Assembly: GCA_022835595.1 (NCBI GenBank)
Contig: BQUP01000004.1
Location: 1,054,001 to 1,118,000, forward strand
DNA: 64,000 bases
DNA from: Cystobasidium ongulense
Lineage: Eukaryota; Basidiomycota; Cystobasidiomycetes; Cystobasidiales; Cystobasidiaceae
Reading direction: 5' to 3'
Shown: one piece after another, positions 865-47,106 of the stretch
Position numbering within the stretch: the stretch's first letter is position 1
Layout of the letters: the number at the start of each line of letters is the position of its first letter
Made by a program: the position numbers and the translations under genes
Notes under the pieces: model-generated
Told to the model about the DNA's origin: nothing
What the model saw: the letters and a program-made list of their open reading frames with translations, nothing else
The model's database searches: none

Positions 865-2495
<1,631 letters not shown>

Positions 2496-4896: not shown

Positions 4897-7800
4897 CTAA
4901 TCTCTGCGGGGTCTCTTTCCTTTGCTCATTACTCCATATTTGAGCTTTGTGTCTTTAAAGCTTTCGTTCTTCCTCTTCCTGTTCTTCAAAGTGCTATCGT
5001 TCTTCTTTGCTCGCCTTTGAGCCTCTACTTCTGGGTTGTTGACAGCTTGCAAAGCGGTCGTGCGTTTTCTACCTTCACGTTTGACTGCCATATTTCGCTG
5101 AATCTTGGAATATGTTTCAGTGACAGGAGTAACACCTAATCTTTCGGAAAGCATCTCCTGGACTTCGCGAGCTAAAGCTTGTAATTCGTCTGCGAGCAAA
5201 GACTATCGTCAGAATCCGAGGCTCAAAGTCACATGCGGAAACAGCACTCACCCATCTGTGCATCTTGGGCTCCGTTTGGATCCTCAATCATCCTAACAAC
5301 AGGCAAAAGTATCTGGTGAATTTGCTTCTCAAGAAGCTCTTTGCTGATAGTCGGCTCCGAGATCATAGCAGCAAACCAGCGTAAAATTGACATTGGCTCA
5401 GTAGACCATTTCCACTGGCGCTGTGACACGCAGAAGCATCAGTATAGATCCAATAAGATAGAAGACAGAAGAGAAGGGGGTGCTTACATCTGCAAGCGAA
5501 TACTTGCTTGGCTTCATTTGATGCGCAACACGCGCTCGGTGAGAAAGCTTAACGAACAGCCAATGGAACGGATTCGATTGAGGTGTTTTCTTTGAGGCGG
5601 CTACAGCATCGACTCCATCATTGGCACCATCGTCAGGCGTTTCTTCAACTACAGCTTCCTCGTCCACCGTATCCGGATTCTTGGAGAATTCCGCGAAGCG
5701 CTTGCCGATGAAGAACATGTTCTTGACGATCTGCAAAGCAAGAGTATCGTCTAAGTGCTTGCTCTTGAGTTGGGTAGTAGAAGCCGAAGCCGCGTCGATC
5801 AGATCGTCCAGACTTGGCTCTTGTGGTGCATGAGAGTAGAGAACGCCCAGAAGTCTCGAGCTGGCCTGCCTCACCCATGTGTGTGGGAAGACTAGTACCG
5901 AGCGAAGTGACCGATTGAAAGTCGCATCGATGTCGCCAAAGGCAGCGGGGACCATTGACAGAATTTTTTGTAATGAAGCAAGGGCTTGATAGGTTGGTTG
6001 CCATGCAAGACTCTCCCCTCCTGTTTCGTCCATCTCATGATCAAGCATATCCTCGTCTGCTTCTGACAGATGAAGGGCTGCCTCGTTGACTATCGTCACA
6101 AGCAAGGGTACAACTTCATGAGACAGTGTTTCCGTCTCAGTCTTGCCTCGGAAGGCTTCGACTACGAGACCAGATGTTTGGGCGGACACCTTTTTAAGAT
6201 CGGTATTTGCATCTTGTTGGCCCCATGCAAGAATTGTCGACACAAATCGCTGGCGGACGTCTTTGCTGACACGGCTGTAAAGAATCTTGCAGTCTTCTGC
6301 AGCCATTGAGCGGCACTTTGGAGATTCATCGTTTGCGAGGTCCATGACCAAAGCGACGTGTAACAGATCGGCGTACTGATCCAGGAGATCAGTTCCAAAC
6401 TTCGAGAGAATAGCATTGACAAGTTCTAGAGCAGATACGCGACCTGATTCGTGCACATATCCTCCCAAGTTCTTGACGAGAAAATGTAGGGATGTCGCCA
6501 ATCGCTTCTTGCCTTGAGGATAATCCAGGAGGAATTGCAGGTAAATCGAACGACATATCTCACGCGTTCCATGAGACTGGCTAGCAATGAGGATCTCGGC
6601 GACACGGTCCATGAGATCATACACTTCAGGAGATGCAAACTTGCGCGACACCACAGCCCGCAGAAGAGAAAAGAGGGCTGCCTGCTGATCTGGTTCTTCT
6701 AAATCGGGAGACATGATGTCTACCAGTGTCGCCAACTGTTCGTCCGCGAGTACCAGCGTTTTGCGGTCACGGATCAAAGTTGCTAGTGTACGGATGGTGG
6801 TTTGAGAAAGATCTGATGCAGTACCACCCATGTTCTCAAGGATCGAGATCATCTGTTTGACGAGTACAGGCGATGCTTTTTCGATGGAAGCCAGCGGACA
6901 TTTGATGAGCGATGCCACGGCTCGCAGGGCCCGATCCAGGACATGAGCTTCTTCTGCGAAAAGGGTGTCTCCAACCAAGATAATCAAGGGATCAAGTCGC
7001 GATACCGTTTCCTCGTCGGACAGATCGAATCGATTCTTCTTGAAGGCACCGTTGAGAAGGTCAAGGCCGAATGCAACGAACTTGTGCGCATTCTGTGCAT
7101 ACGAATCAGTCCCAGCATGCGCCGTGCGCTTGATTTGTACTCGGTATTCTTTGCTCGCGAGGCTGTCTTTCTTGCCTTTGGGCTTACGCGGCTTCAGGAA
7201 ATCCGTATTTTGGCTGATCAAAGCCTGCGAAAGTGTCAGGAGCGTCGAATTCTGAAGCTGCTTGTTCCGCTGGAGACCCGCTGCTATATGTCGAAGTATA
7301 TCATCAAGGTTTTGCATAACCCGGATATTGTCACTATCGTTGAGAATGCCCCTGAGAGGGCCGAGGAGGGCATTGACCTTGTTGGGCGAGACGTGTGCTG
7401 CCAGGAGCTCGATAGAATCCATACTTTTGCACAGGCGTACTTCTCTATACTTTGTCTTTGAGCGAAACTCGGTGGACTGCCTGTCCTTGGCGGGGTACCC
7501 GAGCTGTTTGTACGAGATGTTAGCGGAAGCTCGCCTTCTCAAAGTGTAGGAATATTGTACTCACCAAGTCGTCATAAATAATTGGAACAGCATCTCCGAG
7601 GCACGCATCGATGTTGGCATCTGCCACAGCTGAAAGCACACGCTCCAGGAGAGCGTGCAAAACGAAGGCTAGAACATGAAGATGAGGTCCCTTGGCAAGA
7701 CTGGCTCGCAATTCTTTCACAAAGATAGACAAGTATTCGGTCCCGAGGTAGACGGCGATGTGACACATGGTGTTCCTCGTCATGTCACGGACCTCTTGCG

Positions 7801-10800
7801 ATTTACTACGCAAAACCTGGGCTAGCGCGGTGATCAAGCTGGTAACATCGCCCACCCGGTGTTCTTCAGGTACCTGCTGCACGATAACAGCGATACCCTC
7901 GGCTACCGGAATTCGAAGTGCTTCCTCTGTTTCGTTGCGAGCTTGCAAGAATTGGAGTAGACGGGGTAGAAGTTTGTTTTGTATAGTTGACAATATAGGA
8001 AGCCTGTCTGCAGCTGACATGGACTCAAGATCGAATTTGAAACCTTTGAGTATGGCGACCAATACCCTGACGTAGACTTTCTGATTGTCGCGCTTCTCGG
8101 CTGCAGAAGCGAAATATTGTTGCAGTAATCGGTGATATGCACCCCAATGCAGAGCGCTAGCCAAGCGACCAATTGTGGTGACAGTCTCATTAACGACTTC
8201 CTGAGCTTTACTCTCGGCTGCCGCAGCCAGATTGTAGGCCACGAGAGGCAAAAAGATATCGTTGATAGTCTTGCTAGAAAGGGATCGTGCCTCTGCTTCT
8301 TCAGCCAAGCGACGGAGTGCCCTTGCTCTGCGATGACTTTGAATGTGATAAACATTATTGAAGAAACTAGCCTCTTCATCTTCGGCCAAGAGGCACTTCA
8401 TCTCGTCCAACTCGGCAAACCCGGTGTCGGCCCGAACCGCTGCATGAAGAACTGATATACTCTCCACGCGCACAAGATCAACCTTGGACCGCAAAGCACG
8501 TCTTAGCGCTGGCATGAAATTTTTGCTGAAGACCAGCCGATATGTGGCATCAAGACTTGGCCCGGCGACCTCAACGAAGCGGCGCAATGCGGCATTGGCG
8601 TTGCTTCTAATTGACATTTCTTCCACGTCTTGGACGAAATAGAACATGTTGGCCAGTACCGGAACCCAATCTGAAGCACTCAAACTCTTGTACTTGCGCT
8701 CATTCAGATCTTGGAAGGCGCCCAGCCTTCGATCAAAGTCCGGCACATCCATTCGCTTGATAGAAAAAGCATTGAGCTCTTCCAGTAGGTCGACGACTTC
8801 GGAAGTCTGGCCTCTTGCATGCTGAAGTCTTCGGAAGACTGACAGAGTTCCAATGCGACCGTTGCGCGTTCGCATAGTGGCGAACAATGCACATACTGTG
8901 CGGTTGCACACTTCGAGCATGTCCGCTTGATATGACGCGGAGGACTCGCTTTCGGACGGTAGCAAAGTGTGCATAATCTTGAGGAGCTCGATCTTCACAC
9001 TTTCTGGAATGAGCATGTTTGGCTTGTTTAAAAGGGGCAATAGAAGAGGAAGTAGTTGTTCTCTATATTGGGTACCGGTAATGAAAGGAGAGATATTCGA
9101 TAGAAGTGATATGAGGCGTAGACCGATCTGATCCCGTACGTTAAGCGAAGAAGAGCGGACCGCAAGTAATCGTGAGATGCTCGATAGCAGCGGATCGACA
9201 TATACTTCCAAGACTTCCTGTCGAACGGACACATTATCGCCGGATAGCAAAAGGATTTTCTGCACAATCTCGAGAATGCGCAGAATTACTGGATCCTTGA
9301 CATTCGGTGTTGCCAGGGTCGAGTAAAGCGCCGGCAACAGTGTCTGATCGTATCGGACAAGGATGAAAGCCGTCTCTTCATACGATGCCCAAGTGGCAAT
9401 CAAGTCCAGCAGTGCCGAAGGACCTTGAGCATTTTCAGCACCAAATTGTGCCAGACGAGGGCTAATGAGCTGTTCGAAGAGGGCAGGTAGATACCGAGAA
9501 GCATTGAAGGAAGGGTCCAGCCGGAAAAAGTCTGACATACGTCGGAAAGCAAGCTGTCGGATGTGACGCACTCTGTCGCTAGTGTTCTGCGAAGATCGTG
9601 AATGATATGCTAGGTTGAGAGTAATCTGGAAGAGTCTACCCCAGTGCTTGCGGAGCTTCTCCGCGAGATGCGACATTGTATCGCCGAGAAGAGCAAGGAA
9701 GCCAAGTTGCTGACTAGCGGATGCGTGGGGCGGTTCCGCAAAACCGAATTGTTCGCCCATCGAATCGGTTTGATCTCGGAAAGTCGTTGCCATGAGATCT
9801 ACAAGAACGTCCAAGTCTTCCGGTTGGCAGGCCTTCAACGCATTCAAGATGGCTGATTTTCGGCTTTTCTGAACATTGATTGCGCTCGCACGACCTTGTC
9901 TGGAGCTCATGAGACCGAAGAGCACGCGGACAGTTACATTGACAACTTGTTCGCGCCGCTCTGGCATGATGTCAGAGGTGTCTTCAGCCAAAGAGAACTG
10001 TAGCAGCTCGTCGCGTAGATGGGAACTTTGAAGCATGTTGCGGAAGTTGGTTTCATATGGCAGCAAATTTGGCGATTTCCAGGTGAGAATGGTGTCTAGG
10101 GCTAAACCTTGAATGCTAGAATCGCCGTGCGAAAGTAGCTGAAGCATACGCTCGTAAACCTCATCGGATCGGTACAGGGCCTTGGGGTTCTTGAAACTTG
10201 AAAGCACTTTGAGCCAATTGCAGAGGCGTTCGCGACCTACGTGTCCTCCGGCACCCGGCGTCTCATCAGAGAGCAAGCTTTGTTGCCCAAATTGAGCGAA
10301 GAAGAGCTCCAGGAAATCTCTGCTGTGCTGTTCAGTGAGTACTCGCATTTGCCGGGCAAGAGCGAGCAGCTGTGTCTCCAGGTTGAGATTTGATAGCCTA
10401 GACGTGGGTAGCTGGGCCTGCAGAACGTTTCATTCGGATTAGCAACGAGCCCATCTTTGTTATGCAGGGTATATCTTACTTGAATCTCCTTTTCGTTATG
10501 GGTGCGCGGCCCCAGCTGCGACAGCTCTGAAAAGCGAAGGACGCTGTCGCTATACTTGCTCAGTGAACGCGTGAAGGCCGTACATATGAGATCGTTCTGG
10601 CGCCATTGAGCTATGCTAGATTGTATCGGAGTCTCTTCGTGTTGCACAACCCAGGCTGGGCCTGCTGGAGGAGTGGAGTCCCTCATGTCAGATCCAGCAA
10701 GGTTCCCGAGCTGTTCCGAGAGAATGCTCCAAATCAAGCTTCGCGAGCTTGGAAGCGCCTTGTGGACTTCAGAAATTACATCGATGGCTTCAGACCACAA

Positions 10801-13687
10801 GGGCTTGAAGTTGACTTTGAGCATAGCGAAAGAATAGAGAAGTCCGATTTCGACATCTTCGGACTTGACATCTTCTAAAGTTTTCAGAGCTATGCCTAGT
10901 CGGCGTAGGTGCATATTCTTATCCCGAGCATCTTGCGGGGTAAGAGAAATCCGCTCTACCTCTAGCGCTTGGTTTACTATTTCTGAGGTAATCGTGCGAT
11001 GCTTGAGGAGGATCAGCGTGCTTGTACGCAAGGAAGCGTCTTCAGACAATAGGCCATGCTTGCATGCAGTATACACTTTACTCGCATGAGGCTCTGGAAT
11101 GGCGCTGCGGAGGGACACGATGGCAGCGACTTGGGAGATAACCGTGCGGTGCCAGTGGTACACTTCGATGATACGGACAAGATCATCGAGTGGGAGCAAT
11201 GCAGCCTGTCCGATGCTCGATAAACATTGTAGGAAAGATGATAGTAAAGCCCCCGAATTTACTGGTGTCCTTTGGAAGTCTTCTTGAGCTTGCGATGGGT
11301 TTTCATGAGCATGGACTAGGACTTTAATGGCTGACAGTATTGGCTCCTGGAGATCTTCGTATCGAGTAAAGGAGCTGCAGATTACGAGACAATCGACGAG
11401 ATCTTGGCTCTGTAAATGAACGAAGTCAGCTACAAACCTCGGTGGTCAAATAATACGCAACCTACTTGACGTTCAGTGACTTTGCCGTTCTTATAACTGA
11501 CAGTCCAGCTTCGTATTTGTTGCGCAAATTTGCTTCCAACGTCTGTGAAGACGGTATCGAGAGGTGGAAGCTGACCACGGTCTGAAATACCCGCTAGAAG
11601 TGAAACGTATGCACTGCTGCCCAATCGATCCTTGCTCTCGCGTTTGAGTAGAGGCGTAGCAAAATCTTGGAAGTACGTCCATTGATGCTCGGACAGAACA
11701 GTGAAGGCGGCATAACTCAGATGAGCGTACTGAAGCAGAATTTCGTTAGTGAAAATGTCGTTCTAGTAGTCTCTATATGCTCACCTCTGATGGAAGATTC
11801 CAAATCTTTTCCAACAGTTTCCGACCGCTGTCCAACATGGACTGCAAAGTTGGCGCATTCAGGAGTGCAAATGTGGCCGTCTCTACAGCAGGAGGGACCA
11901 ACGTCGCAATGCGGGTCATGTCCGCCCACGATTTGTCGCTCATTGACAGAATTGATGCCTTTTCCTTATCCGCCAAGCGATTTCCCTTGCGTGTTCCACT
12001 AAGAACACACACTAAATCCATGACGAGATGGGTTTCATACTCGGTTTCAGCGTCGGAAAGCTTATTGAAGCGCGCAAGAATGACTTCTGATACTGTTGAG
12101 AGGGTTTCTGGACGGCCGTGATGGAGTATACCAGTCAAAGCAGCATCGAATACCTGTATGACAGGTGCAGACTTCAAATCGGAAGCCTGTCGGATGAAAG
12201 CTCGTAGGATAGCGGGTGCTCTCGAGTGTATATGTGTCTCCACAGATTTGACGCTCTCAAGCAGAAGCCATGCCGTACTTTCGCATAGCTCCGAAGGCGA
12301 TTCGGTATTCAAGCTCTGGAGGATGATACGAGCCAGACTGTCTAGAGGCTCACCGTTCTTGGCGCGGCGGAGCAGGAAAGCAAAGCAGGTGGCTAACAGA
12401 CGTCGAAGATGTGGTTTTGTAGCGGAGAGCGGTCTTCGTCTCGAAGATCTGGCATGGATGCGGTGGTGCGCGTTATCATCCTCGGCTGTGCTTTCGCTGT
12501 CGCTGGTATCCGCTAGATCGACTTCAGCCGCTTCTTCAGCTGACACCGCAGCATCTACTGTTTCAACTTGAATATCGGCTTGCTGCTCTAGTGGTGCTTC
12601 CTCGAGTTGGGATCTTTCATCGTGGTCCTCCTCCTCGTCTACTTCATCTTTCTCGTCATTTTGCTCAAATGATAGCTTCTCATCGTCAGTGACTTCTTCT
12701 GGTAGGCTGACGGACGGTTTTGAACCACTGAGTCCGTCTACAACCCATGACCAGGCGACTTGGTGACGATGTTGGTAGTCTGCCCCATTGACGAGATCAC
12801 TTCCAATTTGTCTGAAAGTCCACGCTAGAACCTGGAAAGCCCTTTTACTGATTTCAACTGGCGAATTGGGATCGTTGCCTCTGTCTCCGCTAGTTTTTGT
12901 GTGCACTGAAGGAGGATCGACTGCGAGGCCAACTACCGCTCGCATGAGTGGCGTAAGTATAGTGTCCAGCTGTAGCTGCTTGAAATCTGGATCTGGCGTT
13001 AAGCATTGTATGAAGCTGGGGATGATGTCGATGATATGAGGCACGGACAGAGCTAAATCTACCCGGTCTGGTATCGATAAAGCCTTCACTAGAAGATTTG
13101 CAATGGATTGCTTGTGGTGAAGAATTAGAGGCAGTGATCGAGTGATGGGGTACAAAGCTTTGTGAAGTGTGTGGAAAGGTATCGAGGTATTGAGAAGAGC
13201 CAGCTCCGCAAGAGCTATCGACATAGGACTTGTGAGCTGTATCAAGCGGAACGTTAGATTGTGTTCTGATTCTCGAAGTTTTGCACGTACCATATCTTCG
13301 TCTTCGTCCTCACTTTCTTCGTCTGAAGACTCGGCGTCCATGCCATCTTCCGCCTGTGACTTCTTCTCTGAGATAGTTGGCTGGGCGTCCCACCTTCCAA
13401 ACCGTTCAACTGCATCTTCGATAAGACTAGCGAGGTCCACAGAGATATCCTTGTACCGTTCAGCTTGACTTTTGAACTGCAGCAAGCAAGTTGATCAGCA
13501 AGACGATCGAAAGAGCATGTTGCAGGCAATGACTTACCTTGAAACGAGTGTCTACGGTTGTCTGCTTCTTGCTTCCTAGCCTATGCTTCTTGTGTTGTCT
13601 CTTTGCGCTGCTTGCAGCTTCTGCCCTCTGCTCCTTCTCTCGCCTGATGCGCTTGTCAGATTTGACATGGGTTTTGCGGACCGCCAT
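4897..13687 (-). CDS. UTP20: U3 snoRNP / SSU processome HEAT-repeat protein UTP20
   Basis: Nine exons read on the minus strand: 13687-13538, 13476-13291, 13236-11785, 11729-11466, 11409-10480, 10417-7565, 7503-5488, 5420-5252 and 5189-4897. All are in phase and give 2,770 aa, near human UTP20 (2,785) and somewhat above yeast Utp20 (2,493). The start MAVRKTHVKSDKRIRREKE is basic and the end (LKYGVMSKGKRPRRD) is a lysine/arginine tail. Between them lies almost continuous HEAT/ARM-like helical repeat, with an acidic, Ser/Glu/Asp-rich stretch around residues 245-330. Utp20 is a nucleolar scaffold needed for early 18S pre-rRNA cleavage. Intron 2 (13290-13237, 54 nt) has no stop and is a multiple of three, so it could pass as coding. 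I excise it because it has GTACGT, a CTAAC branch site and CAG, and the surrounding acidic segment reads on smoothly. Confidence 0.88.
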
Positions 13688-14504: not shown

Positions 14505-14637
14505 GCCCGGCTAGCTCAGTCGGTAGAGCATCGTTAGTTTGTCCACATTACCGTAGTCTCCAAGACATATTCTAATATTCATAAAATCGTAGAGACTTTT
14601 AATCTGATTGTCGCGGGTTCGAGCCCCGCGTTGGGCT
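14505..14637 (+). tRNA. tRNA-Lys(UUU) split by a 60-nt GT-AG insert in the anticodon stem
   Basis: The acceptor 5' strand GCCCGGC (14505-14511) pairs with GTTGGGC (14630-14636). The D arm is GCTC/GAGC (14514-14529). The T arm is GCGGG/CCCGC with loop TTCGAGC (14613-14629). The anticodon loop CTTTTAA (14596-14602) gives anticodon UUU. The 3' anticodon strand TCTGA (14603-14607) needs TCAGA, but only TC (14531-14532) precedes the interruption and AGA (14593-14595) follows it. Deleting 14533-14592 restores a perfect five-pair stem. The A box (14512-14523) and B box (14616-14626) are intact, and a TTTTT Pol III terminator lies at 14646-14650. The discriminator base 73 reads T, unusual for a lysine tRNA. 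A reading as a pseudogene is possible, but the exactly restorable junction argues for a working gene. Confidence 0.9.
14533..14592 (+). other. mRNA-type (GT-AG) intron inside tRNA-Lys between nt 28 and 29
   Basis: This 60-nt insert starts GTTAGT, ends CGTAG, and has CTAAT at 14572-14576 with the likely branch A 17 nt before the 3' AG. The cut points are unique: shifting either way breaks the anticodon stem. The unique junction coincides with GT and AG, expected about once in 256 by chance. Length and branch spacing match the protein-gene introns of this window. Canonical nuclear tRNA introns sit at 37/38 and are removed by the tRNA endonuclease; here loop and 3' stem strand are continuous. 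The T at intron position 3 is weak against the A/G seen in most introns nearby. Confidence 0.8.
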
Positions 14638-15125
14638 GTGACGCATTTTTGCTGGGAGTGACTACCAAGCCTGTCCTCCATGTAAGCCTGTAGAGCTTCG
14701 TTGCTTCTTTTTGGTGTTCCTCAAACCTCAAATCCTGGTTGGAGTTGCGCGGTGTATCGACACGGTCAAAAGGCAGGGCAGTGGTGAGGGTTCCAGAGAG
14801 CGTTTGTGTGGCTACTATGTCGCCGCCGATGGGAACCACTCGAACGGCATGACAAGCGAGCATGGCCAGAACAACTAACGACCTGTCGCTCGCTGGAGCT
14901 AGCCTGAGCTCTTGCTTGCCTGTACAGTGAGGAAAGAAGCGAAGGACTCCAATCATGCTGACCCACCTTCCTACTCACGTGCCATCATCATAGGCTCGGC
15001 TGACCGCACCCCCGCAAAGAGTGCTTCTGCGCGACGATACTTTCTTTCTGGGTCTGCTCTTACTTCACTTCAGCATCCATTACTCGACCTTCTCTCCAAC
15101 CGCCATCACTAAATAACACTACACC
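14638..15125. other. Spacer between tRNA-Lys and the isochorismatase gene
   Basis: It contains the TTTTT terminator of the tRNA (14646-14650). The 3' part is pyrimidine-rich just before the ATG at 15126, as expected for a fungal promoter and leader. I see no gene in it. Confidence 0.5.
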
Positions 15126-47033: not shown

Positions 47034-47106
47034 TTCCGAATAGCTCAGCGGTTAGAGCGCTCGCTTCACACGCGAGAAGTCGAGGGTTCGATCCCCCCTT
47101 TGGAAA
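47034..47106 (+). tRNA. tRNA-Val(CAC), no intron
   Basis: Acceptor strands TTCCGAA (47034-47040) and TTTGGAA (47099-47105) pair, with one G-U. The D arm is GCTC/GAGC. The anticodon stem CTCGC/GCGAG is perfect and its loop TTCACAC gives anticodon CAC (47067-47069). The T loop TTCGATC is normal, but the T stem GAGGG/CCCCC has an A-C mismatch at 50:64. Discriminator is A. Two TTTTT tracts follow (47115-47119 and 47126-47130) and can act as Pol III terminators. The anticodon loop is uninterrupted, in contrast to tRNA-Lys at 14505. Confidence 0.9.

Follow-up and report, generated by a model that had tools for sequence, protein, structure and literature searches.

Putative spliceosomal introns in nuclear tRNA genes of the basidiomycete Cystobasidium ongulense

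A tRNA-Lys(UUU) gene split in its anticodon stem

The window analysed here is a stretch of 64,000 nucleotides (nt) from Cystobasidium ongulense (GenBank assembly GCA_022835595.1, contig BQUP01000004.1; G000:C4:1054001-1118000 in our numbering), whose genome comprises 19.77 Mb in 19 contigs. It contains a transfer RNA (tRNA) gene for Lys(UUU) that was overlooked by both ARAGORN and Rfam cmscan, the sole window tRNA called by these programs being tRNA-Val(CAC) (Table 1). The gene is split by a 60-nt insert between nucleotides 28 and 29. In an initial annotation, made from the sequence alone, this insert had been described as starting with GT, ending with AG and carrying CTAAT 17 nt before the AG, within a gene whose A box, B box and five-T terminator were intact; all these elements were found at their places. 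After in silico removal of the insert, ARAGORN called a 73-nt tRNA-Lys(ttt). This spliced form displayed the complete cloverleaf, intact B box and T-run terminator expected of a functional nuclear tRNA gene. The site of the insert, 28/29, is not that of a canonical nuclear tRNA intron (37/38). Likewise, the insert did not qualify as a group I or group II intron, which would have a catalytic RNA core and span hundreds of bases, being 60 nt long in a window where tRNA-Val was the only match at the Rfam gathering cut-off.

The junction was assessed with an excision scorer that removed 40 to 110 nt and graded the restored cloverleaf while ignoring GT and AG. Excision of the 60-nt insert reached 81.0, the single best score of 1,716, and shifts by one base scored 79.5 or 75.5, in agreement with the earlier claim that the cloverleaf is restored by this exact excision and that the junction cannot be moved. 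With GT-AG excisions accounting for 10 of the 1,716, the chance of finding one of them on top was 0.006 for this gene alone. The junction is also settled without any model, because both tRNA-Lys(CUU) genes (on contigs C2 and C8) run contiguous across it. The spliced Lys(UUU) was identical to Lys(CUU) at 70 of 73 positions, the differences consisting of the wobble base 34 and a compensated pair, 50-64.

No second Lys(UUU) locus was found in genome-wide pattern searches with the 5' half and the 3' half of the tRNA (up to three mismatches). Each half returned three tRNA-Lys places, i.e. the two CUU genes and the window gene, and the intact copies that would have pointed to a disrupted pseudogene, as foreseen in the initial annotation, did not appear. 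By established decoding rules, tRNA-Lys(CUU) is not expected to decode AAA. This codon is common, since two exons of the adjoining UTP20 gene use 24 AAA and 31 AAG.

Recurrence of the inserts in tRNA and U6 genes

B boxes, T-run terminators and Rfam tRNA matches served as starting points in the search for further split genes; candidate introns were excised in silico from the surrounding loci, and tRNA positions were numbered by hand. Together with Lys(UUU), nine tRNA species represented by ten genes carried 12 distinct GT-AG inserts (Table 1). These totals refer to the loci read and are a lower bound for the genome. The inserts occupied 11 positions of the cloverleaf (10/11, 13/14, 14/15, 19/20, 20/21, 24/25, 25/26, 26/27, 28/29, 32/33 and 46/47), and the shortest exon among the split tRNAs measured 7 nt, in Leu(AAG). 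An ordinary intron after position 37 was also present in Asn, Arg(CCU), Leu(UAG), Thr, Trp and Leu(AAG). Some spliced products were mislabelled by ARAGORN (Arg(CCU) as Ser, Thr(UGU) as Ala, Leu(AAG) as Asp and Trp as Arg). Their anticodons were read by hand, and our own scorer gave CCT, TGT, AAG and CCA on the GT-AG excisions; for Thr and Trp, equally scored excisions with other anticodons exist.

When the score blind to GT-AG was applied to the 12 counted inserts, a GT-AG excision was best or tied best for every one of them, with 1 to 22 excisions tied per insert. A blind detector based on the acceptor, D arm and T arm alone gave 27 matches in the examined DNA, at least one of which (L036) is probably spurious. 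Six genes (Lys, Asn, Thr, Ile and the two Gly) showed a gap above 64 nt between positions 26 and 48, and all six carry GT-AG inserts; in the Gly genes, the detector mis-fitted the D arm into the insert.

Genome-wide copy searches covered Lys(UUU), Asn, Trp and the 5' half of Ile. Asn(GUU) and Trp(CCA) gave a single 3'-half match each (35-nt query, up to three mismatches), which is the basis of their status as sole copies. An exact second tRNA-Ile 5' half occurred at G000:C2:85470-85498. The two Gly(GCC) genes lie in opposite orientation about 24 kb apart.

U6 small nuclear RNA (snRNA) genes had been put forward in the initial annotation as a precedent for introns of this type, and the U6 gene of this same genome proved to be interrupted as well. 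Its match, the sole one to the Rfam family, scored 37.3 bits, under the family cut-off of 44, as expected of an interrupted gene. Read by eye, it holds three GT-AG introns of 64, 64 and 60 nt, the exons left being TGGAACAATACAG and a 5-nt AGAAG ahead of ATTAGCATGGCCCC. CTAAT lies at 19-20 nt in two of these introns, while the third has CTAAA and is without CTNAY. A B-box-like sequence, GTTCAAATC, was noticed just 3' of the conserved U6 part.

In their anatomy, the inserts came close to introns of messenger RNA (mRNA). The 12 tRNA inserts had a median length of 62 nt (57-67), and in all 12 the A of a CTNAY motif was located 17-23 nt before the insert end. The 23 window mRNA introns used for comparison had a median of 59 nt (55-71) and a branch A 12-21 nt from the end; they were hand-picked from open reading frame (ORF) joins with a preference for strong donors and branch motifs, and their uniformity is partly a product of this choice. 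The likeness between the Lys(UUU) insert and the surrounding mRNA introns, which had been noted initially, was confirmed for length and branch distance. GT...AG at the exact junction and a branch motif at the usual distance, as in U2-type introns, were both present. GTTAGT and GTTAGC were enriched 1.8-fold and 1.4-fold as donor-like words in 303 kb of sequence from which the tRNA and U6 inserts had been masked. A donor bias set the two groups apart: seven of the 12 tRNA inserts and all three U6 introns start with GTTAG, against none of the 23 mRNA introns (tRNA versus mRNA, Fisher P=0.0001). The mRNA donor score docked T at +3 one point of twelve; without this handicap, GTTAG came out as the best donor in 1 of 69 ORF joins (with it, in 0 of 62). 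Of 226.8 excess donor-like words, 7.4 were GTTAG words. A common intron family was considered and rejected: since only two insert pairs share a single 10-mer, no recent common source was seen, the Gly duplicate apart.

TTTT terminates transcription by RNA polymerase III (Pol III). None of the 12 tRNA inserts contained this word, versus 4.6 expected when their interiors were shuffled (P=0.0014), and with the U6 introns added the count was 0 of 15 versus 6.0 expected. In contrast, TTTT occurred in seven of the 23 mRNA introns (6.9 expected). The inserts thus look like sequence that Pol III transcribes and that has been kept passable for it. A run of at least four T starts within 10 nt of position 72 in eight of the nine split species.

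Table 1. Coordinates of the split tRNA-Lys(UUU) gene and of other features. Ranges written with two dots are window positions.
Feature	Location	Strand	Description	Basis
tRNA-Lys(UUU) 5' exon	14505..14532	+	tRNA positions 1-28 (acceptor 5' strand, D arm, anticodon-stem bases 1-2)	identical to tRNA-Lys(CUU) in that stretch
A box	14512..14523	+	TAGCTCAGTCGG, uninterrupted, tRNA positions 8-19	by eye
GT-AG insert	14533..14592	+	60 nt, tRNA positions 28/29	top-ranked among 1,716 excisions, GT-AG-blind score
5' splice site	14533..14538	+	GTTAGT	donor-like word, enriched 1.8-fold in examined DNA (tRNA and U6 inserts masked)
Branch-point-like motif	14572..14576	+	CTAAT, A at 14575, 17 nt before insert end	sequence
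3' splice site	14590..14592	+	TAG	sequence
tRNA-Lys(UUU) 3' exon	14593..14637	+	tRNA positions 29-73	sequence, ARAGORN on spliced form, Lys(CUU) comparison
Anticodon	14598..14600	+	TTT	sequence, ARAGORN on spliced form
B box	14616..14626 (G000:C4:1068616-1068626)	+	GGTTCGAGCCC	pattern match
Pol III terminator	14646..14650	+	TTTTT, then GC; many tRNA genes here are followed by TTTTTGC or TTTTGC	sequence
tRNA-Asn(GUU)	L067		62-nt insert at 26/27	in silico excision
tRNA-Arg(CCU)	L069		66-nt insert at 10/11	in silico excision
tRNA-Leu(UAG)	L080		62-nt insert at 14/15	in silico excision
tRNA-Thr(UGU)	L100		62-nt insert at 32/33	in silico excision
tRNA-Ile(AAU)	L102		63-nt insert at 28/29 and 65-nt insert at 46/47	in silico excision
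tRNA-Gly(GCC)	L108, G000:C4:127950-128210		63-nt insert at 20/21	in silico excision
tRNA-Gly(GCC), second copy	L109, G000:C4:103755-104015		insert identical to L108 insert at 62/63 bases	
tRNA-Trp(CCA)	L103		59-nt insert at 13/14 and 67-nt insert at 25/26	in silico excision
tRNA-Leu(AAG)	L087		58-nt insert at 19/20 and 57-nt insert at 24/25	in silico excision
tRNA-Arg(UCU)	L086, G000:C2:2726683	-	59-nt D-loop insert, outside the 12 counted	
U6 snRNA gene	L060, G000:C1, about 1460-1760	-	three GT-AG introns	Rfam match; introns by eye
U4 snRNA gene	L089, 1363-1497		uninterrupted	Rfam match
tRNA-Ala(UGC)-like match	L027, G000:C4:2002234-2002294	-	Rfam positions 6-65 only	Rfam match
UTP20 gene	5398..13494	-	several exons	
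tRNA-Val(CAC)	47034..47106			ARAGORN and Rfam cmscan

Putative spliceosomal removal and rival explanations

The inserts are very probably spliceosomal (mRNA-type) introns residing inside nuclear tRNA genes. Maturation of tRNA-Lys(UUU) by the spliceosome had been proposed from the window gene, and this proposal is strengthened by the other split tRNA genes, the U6 introns and the lack of TTTT in the inserts. Pol III, directed by the internal boxes, would transcribe the split gene as far as the T-run, and the spliceosome would recognise GTTAGT, CTAAT and TAG and excise the insert, the removal of which would let the anticodon stem form. The eukaryotic tRNA endonuclease locates 37/38 by measuring from the folded body of the tRNA. 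Where a gene carries both kinds of intron, the spliceosome would most likely act first and the endonuclease second, because the latter needs this folded body and, until the insert has been excised, the D or anticodon arm is interrupted.

Similar introns are known in other small RNAs. Those in fungal U3 small nucleolar RNA are likewise of mRNA type and lie in a small structured RNA, the hosts here being tRNAs. mRNA-type introns also occur in U6 snRNA genes of basidiomycetous yeasts. A 2023 paper (PMC10484740) describes the mRNA-type intron of fission yeast U6. The U6 introns of Schizosaccharomyces pombe offer the same combination of a Pol III-made small RNA with GT-AG introns and a branch point; here, however, the hosts are tRNAs, and insertion is not explained by closeness to the spliceosome core. 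Canonical tRNA introns require neither GT-AG nor a branch point. They are also short and found in nuclear tRNA genes; unlike the inserts, they are confined to 37/38, and a 2014 paper (PMC3978253) describes nuclear tRNA introns as exclusively located there, with ectopic introns in algae and a nucleomorph. In accordance with the initial annotation, which knew of no nuclear tRNA with such an intron, no description of spliceosomal introns in nuclear tRNA genes was found among the open-licence PMC matches listed; subscription papers and preprints were outside the scope, and absence from print is unproven.

Several points weigh against this interpretation. For Arg(CCU), Leu(UAG), Leu(AAG), Trp and Arg(UCU), the split came to light only through excision of candidate introns or by eye, and their GT-AG ends are therefore not independent of the means of detection. 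Control excisions were not empty either. Unique fits in the first excision set numbered 24 for GT-AG, 16 for GA-AG, 5 for CT-AC, 5 for GT-AC and 2 for TG-GA, the non-GT-AG ones reflecting the tolerance of ARAGORN for inexact excisions within the same genes. In the second set, matches among spliced sequences amounted to 19/76 for GT-AG, 8/63 for CT-AC, 0/7 for TG-GA, 3/70 for GC-AG and 10/43 for GA-AG. The non-GT-AG fits were confined to genes that had been flagged before, to intact tRNAs (L003, L011 and L013), to Arg(UCU) (GA-AG) and to a truncated tRNA-Ala match (L027) that was fitted by CT-AC and GA-AG excisions. GT-AG excisions likewise re-fitted intact tRNAs (L003, L012 and L075), and the control excisions yielded no further complete split tRNA. 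As for Arg(UCU), its insert displays CTAAC 18 nt from the end and its cloverleaf-restoring ends are GA-AG (GAAAGT...CTAAC...CAG); it is either a non-canonical spliceosomal intron or the mark of a damaged gene, and was left out of the 12-insert counts.

Other points concern Pol III and the scope of the data. Direct comparison of TTTT between inserts and mRNA introns (0/15 versus 7/23) reached a Fisher P of 0.03 only. The Gly(GCC) genes displayed no TTTT within the 32 and 16 nt examined downstream. Pol III initiation is less straightforward at Arg(CCU), Leu(UAG), Trp and Leu(AAG), since an insert interrupts their A box region. The tRNA inventory is a lower bound, Rfam having scored 63 of 554 candidates. 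Finally, Pol III transcription of the split genes, excision by the spliceosome and its precedence over the endonuclease are inferred from DNA.

Among rival explanations, the inserts could be ectopic tRNA introns cut by a tRNA endonuclease of relaxed specificity, as in the red alga Cyanidioschyzon merolae, their GT-AG ends being coincidental; this appears improbable. According to PMC3978253, C. merolae and the Guillardia theta nucleomorph both have introns away from 37/38, many of those in the nucleomorph forming no defined bulge-helix-bulge, and the ectopic introns of the C. merolae nucleus and of archaea resemble the present inserts in occupying many cloverleaf positions, sometimes several per gene. 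Such introns depend on the bulge-helix-bulge and the tRNA endonuclease, whereas here the splice sites are mRNA-type and the motif is not enriched: a loose test was passed by three of the 12 inserts (Lys(UUU), Asn and the second of Leu(AAG)) versus 12.5% of random sequences. Lys(UUU) passed it only with uneven bulges of 4 and 2 nt, and a strict motif (two 3-nt bulges and a 4-bp helix) was not found at its junctions. Over the set, the endonuclease-type processing that the initial annotation had named as contrary evidence is thus unsupported. A relaxed endonuclease would also leave unexplained the GT-AG ends of all 12 inserts, the near-fixed distance of CTNAY and the same type of intron in U6.

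It is very improbable that the split genes are pseudogenes or assembly errors, the working tRNAs being made from copies not found. The incomplete inventory and the second Ile 5' half would agree with such hidden copies. However, Lys(UUU) was found at one locus only and Asn(GUU) and Trp(CCA) with one 3' half each, the compensated T-stem pair is kept in Lys(UUU), and the absence of TTTT from the inserts implies constraint. Moreover, decay offers no account of why, in nine tRNA species, GT-AG inserts of 57-67 nt should sit just where their removal restores the cloverleaf. Splicing of a tRNA-like domain within a longer RNA polymerase II transcript, Pol III being uninvolved, is scarcely credible: the splice signals are mRNA-type and the two Gly(GCC) genes had no T-run in the short stretch examined, but such a transcript needs neither the terminators that follow eight of the nine split species nor TTTT-free inserts.

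Considered as a whole, spliceosomal introns are likely to be an established feature of the nuclear tRNA repertoire in this lineage. No fewer than nine tRNA species, including Lys(UUU), Asn(GUU) and Trp(CCA) with one locus each, would have genes that need the spliceosome, and some precursors would need the spliceosome and then the endonuclease. Translation would in this way come under direct control of the splicing machine, and the U6 introns, taken together with those of the tRNA genes, would suggest that introns keep entering Pol III genes. Should the spliceosome remove the inserts, one machine would take part in both tRNA maturation and mRNA splicing, and essential tRNA genes of such genomes would escape the standard finders, as the window gene escaped ARAGORN and Rfam. 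These genes would also provide a natural test of intron gain and of the spliceosome on uncapped Pol III transcripts and on very short exons, down to 5 nt in U6 and 7 nt in Leu(AAG).

Neighbouring genes and minor observations

Twelve loci (L097, L104-L107 and L110-L116) were examined as split tRNA genes and rejected, giving no tRNA, spliced or unspliced. The tRNA-Ala(UGC)-like match L027 is without fitting acceptor ends and is possibly a truncated or split gene. The U4 snRNA gene was uninterrupted in its Rfam match. The word TCATCAA begins 14-30 nt upstream of five of the ten split tRNA genes and of three of the 14 intact ones viewed (L067, L080, L087, L108, L109, L006, L007 and L098), where it is perhaps a start-site element.

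The Lys 5' exon followed by GT had no exact match in viral and general genome contig collections, neither of which was built for fungi. Intron-rich genes of this genome include UTP20, which adjoins the split tRNA-Lys gene, and genes with Rax2 and Mmc1 domains; together with the multi-intron U6, they would fit a fungus, probably a basidiomycetous yeast. A protein search returned near-identical proteins, one of which, from a metagenome, was 99% identical to a UTP20 exon; close relatives have therefore been sequenced somewhere.
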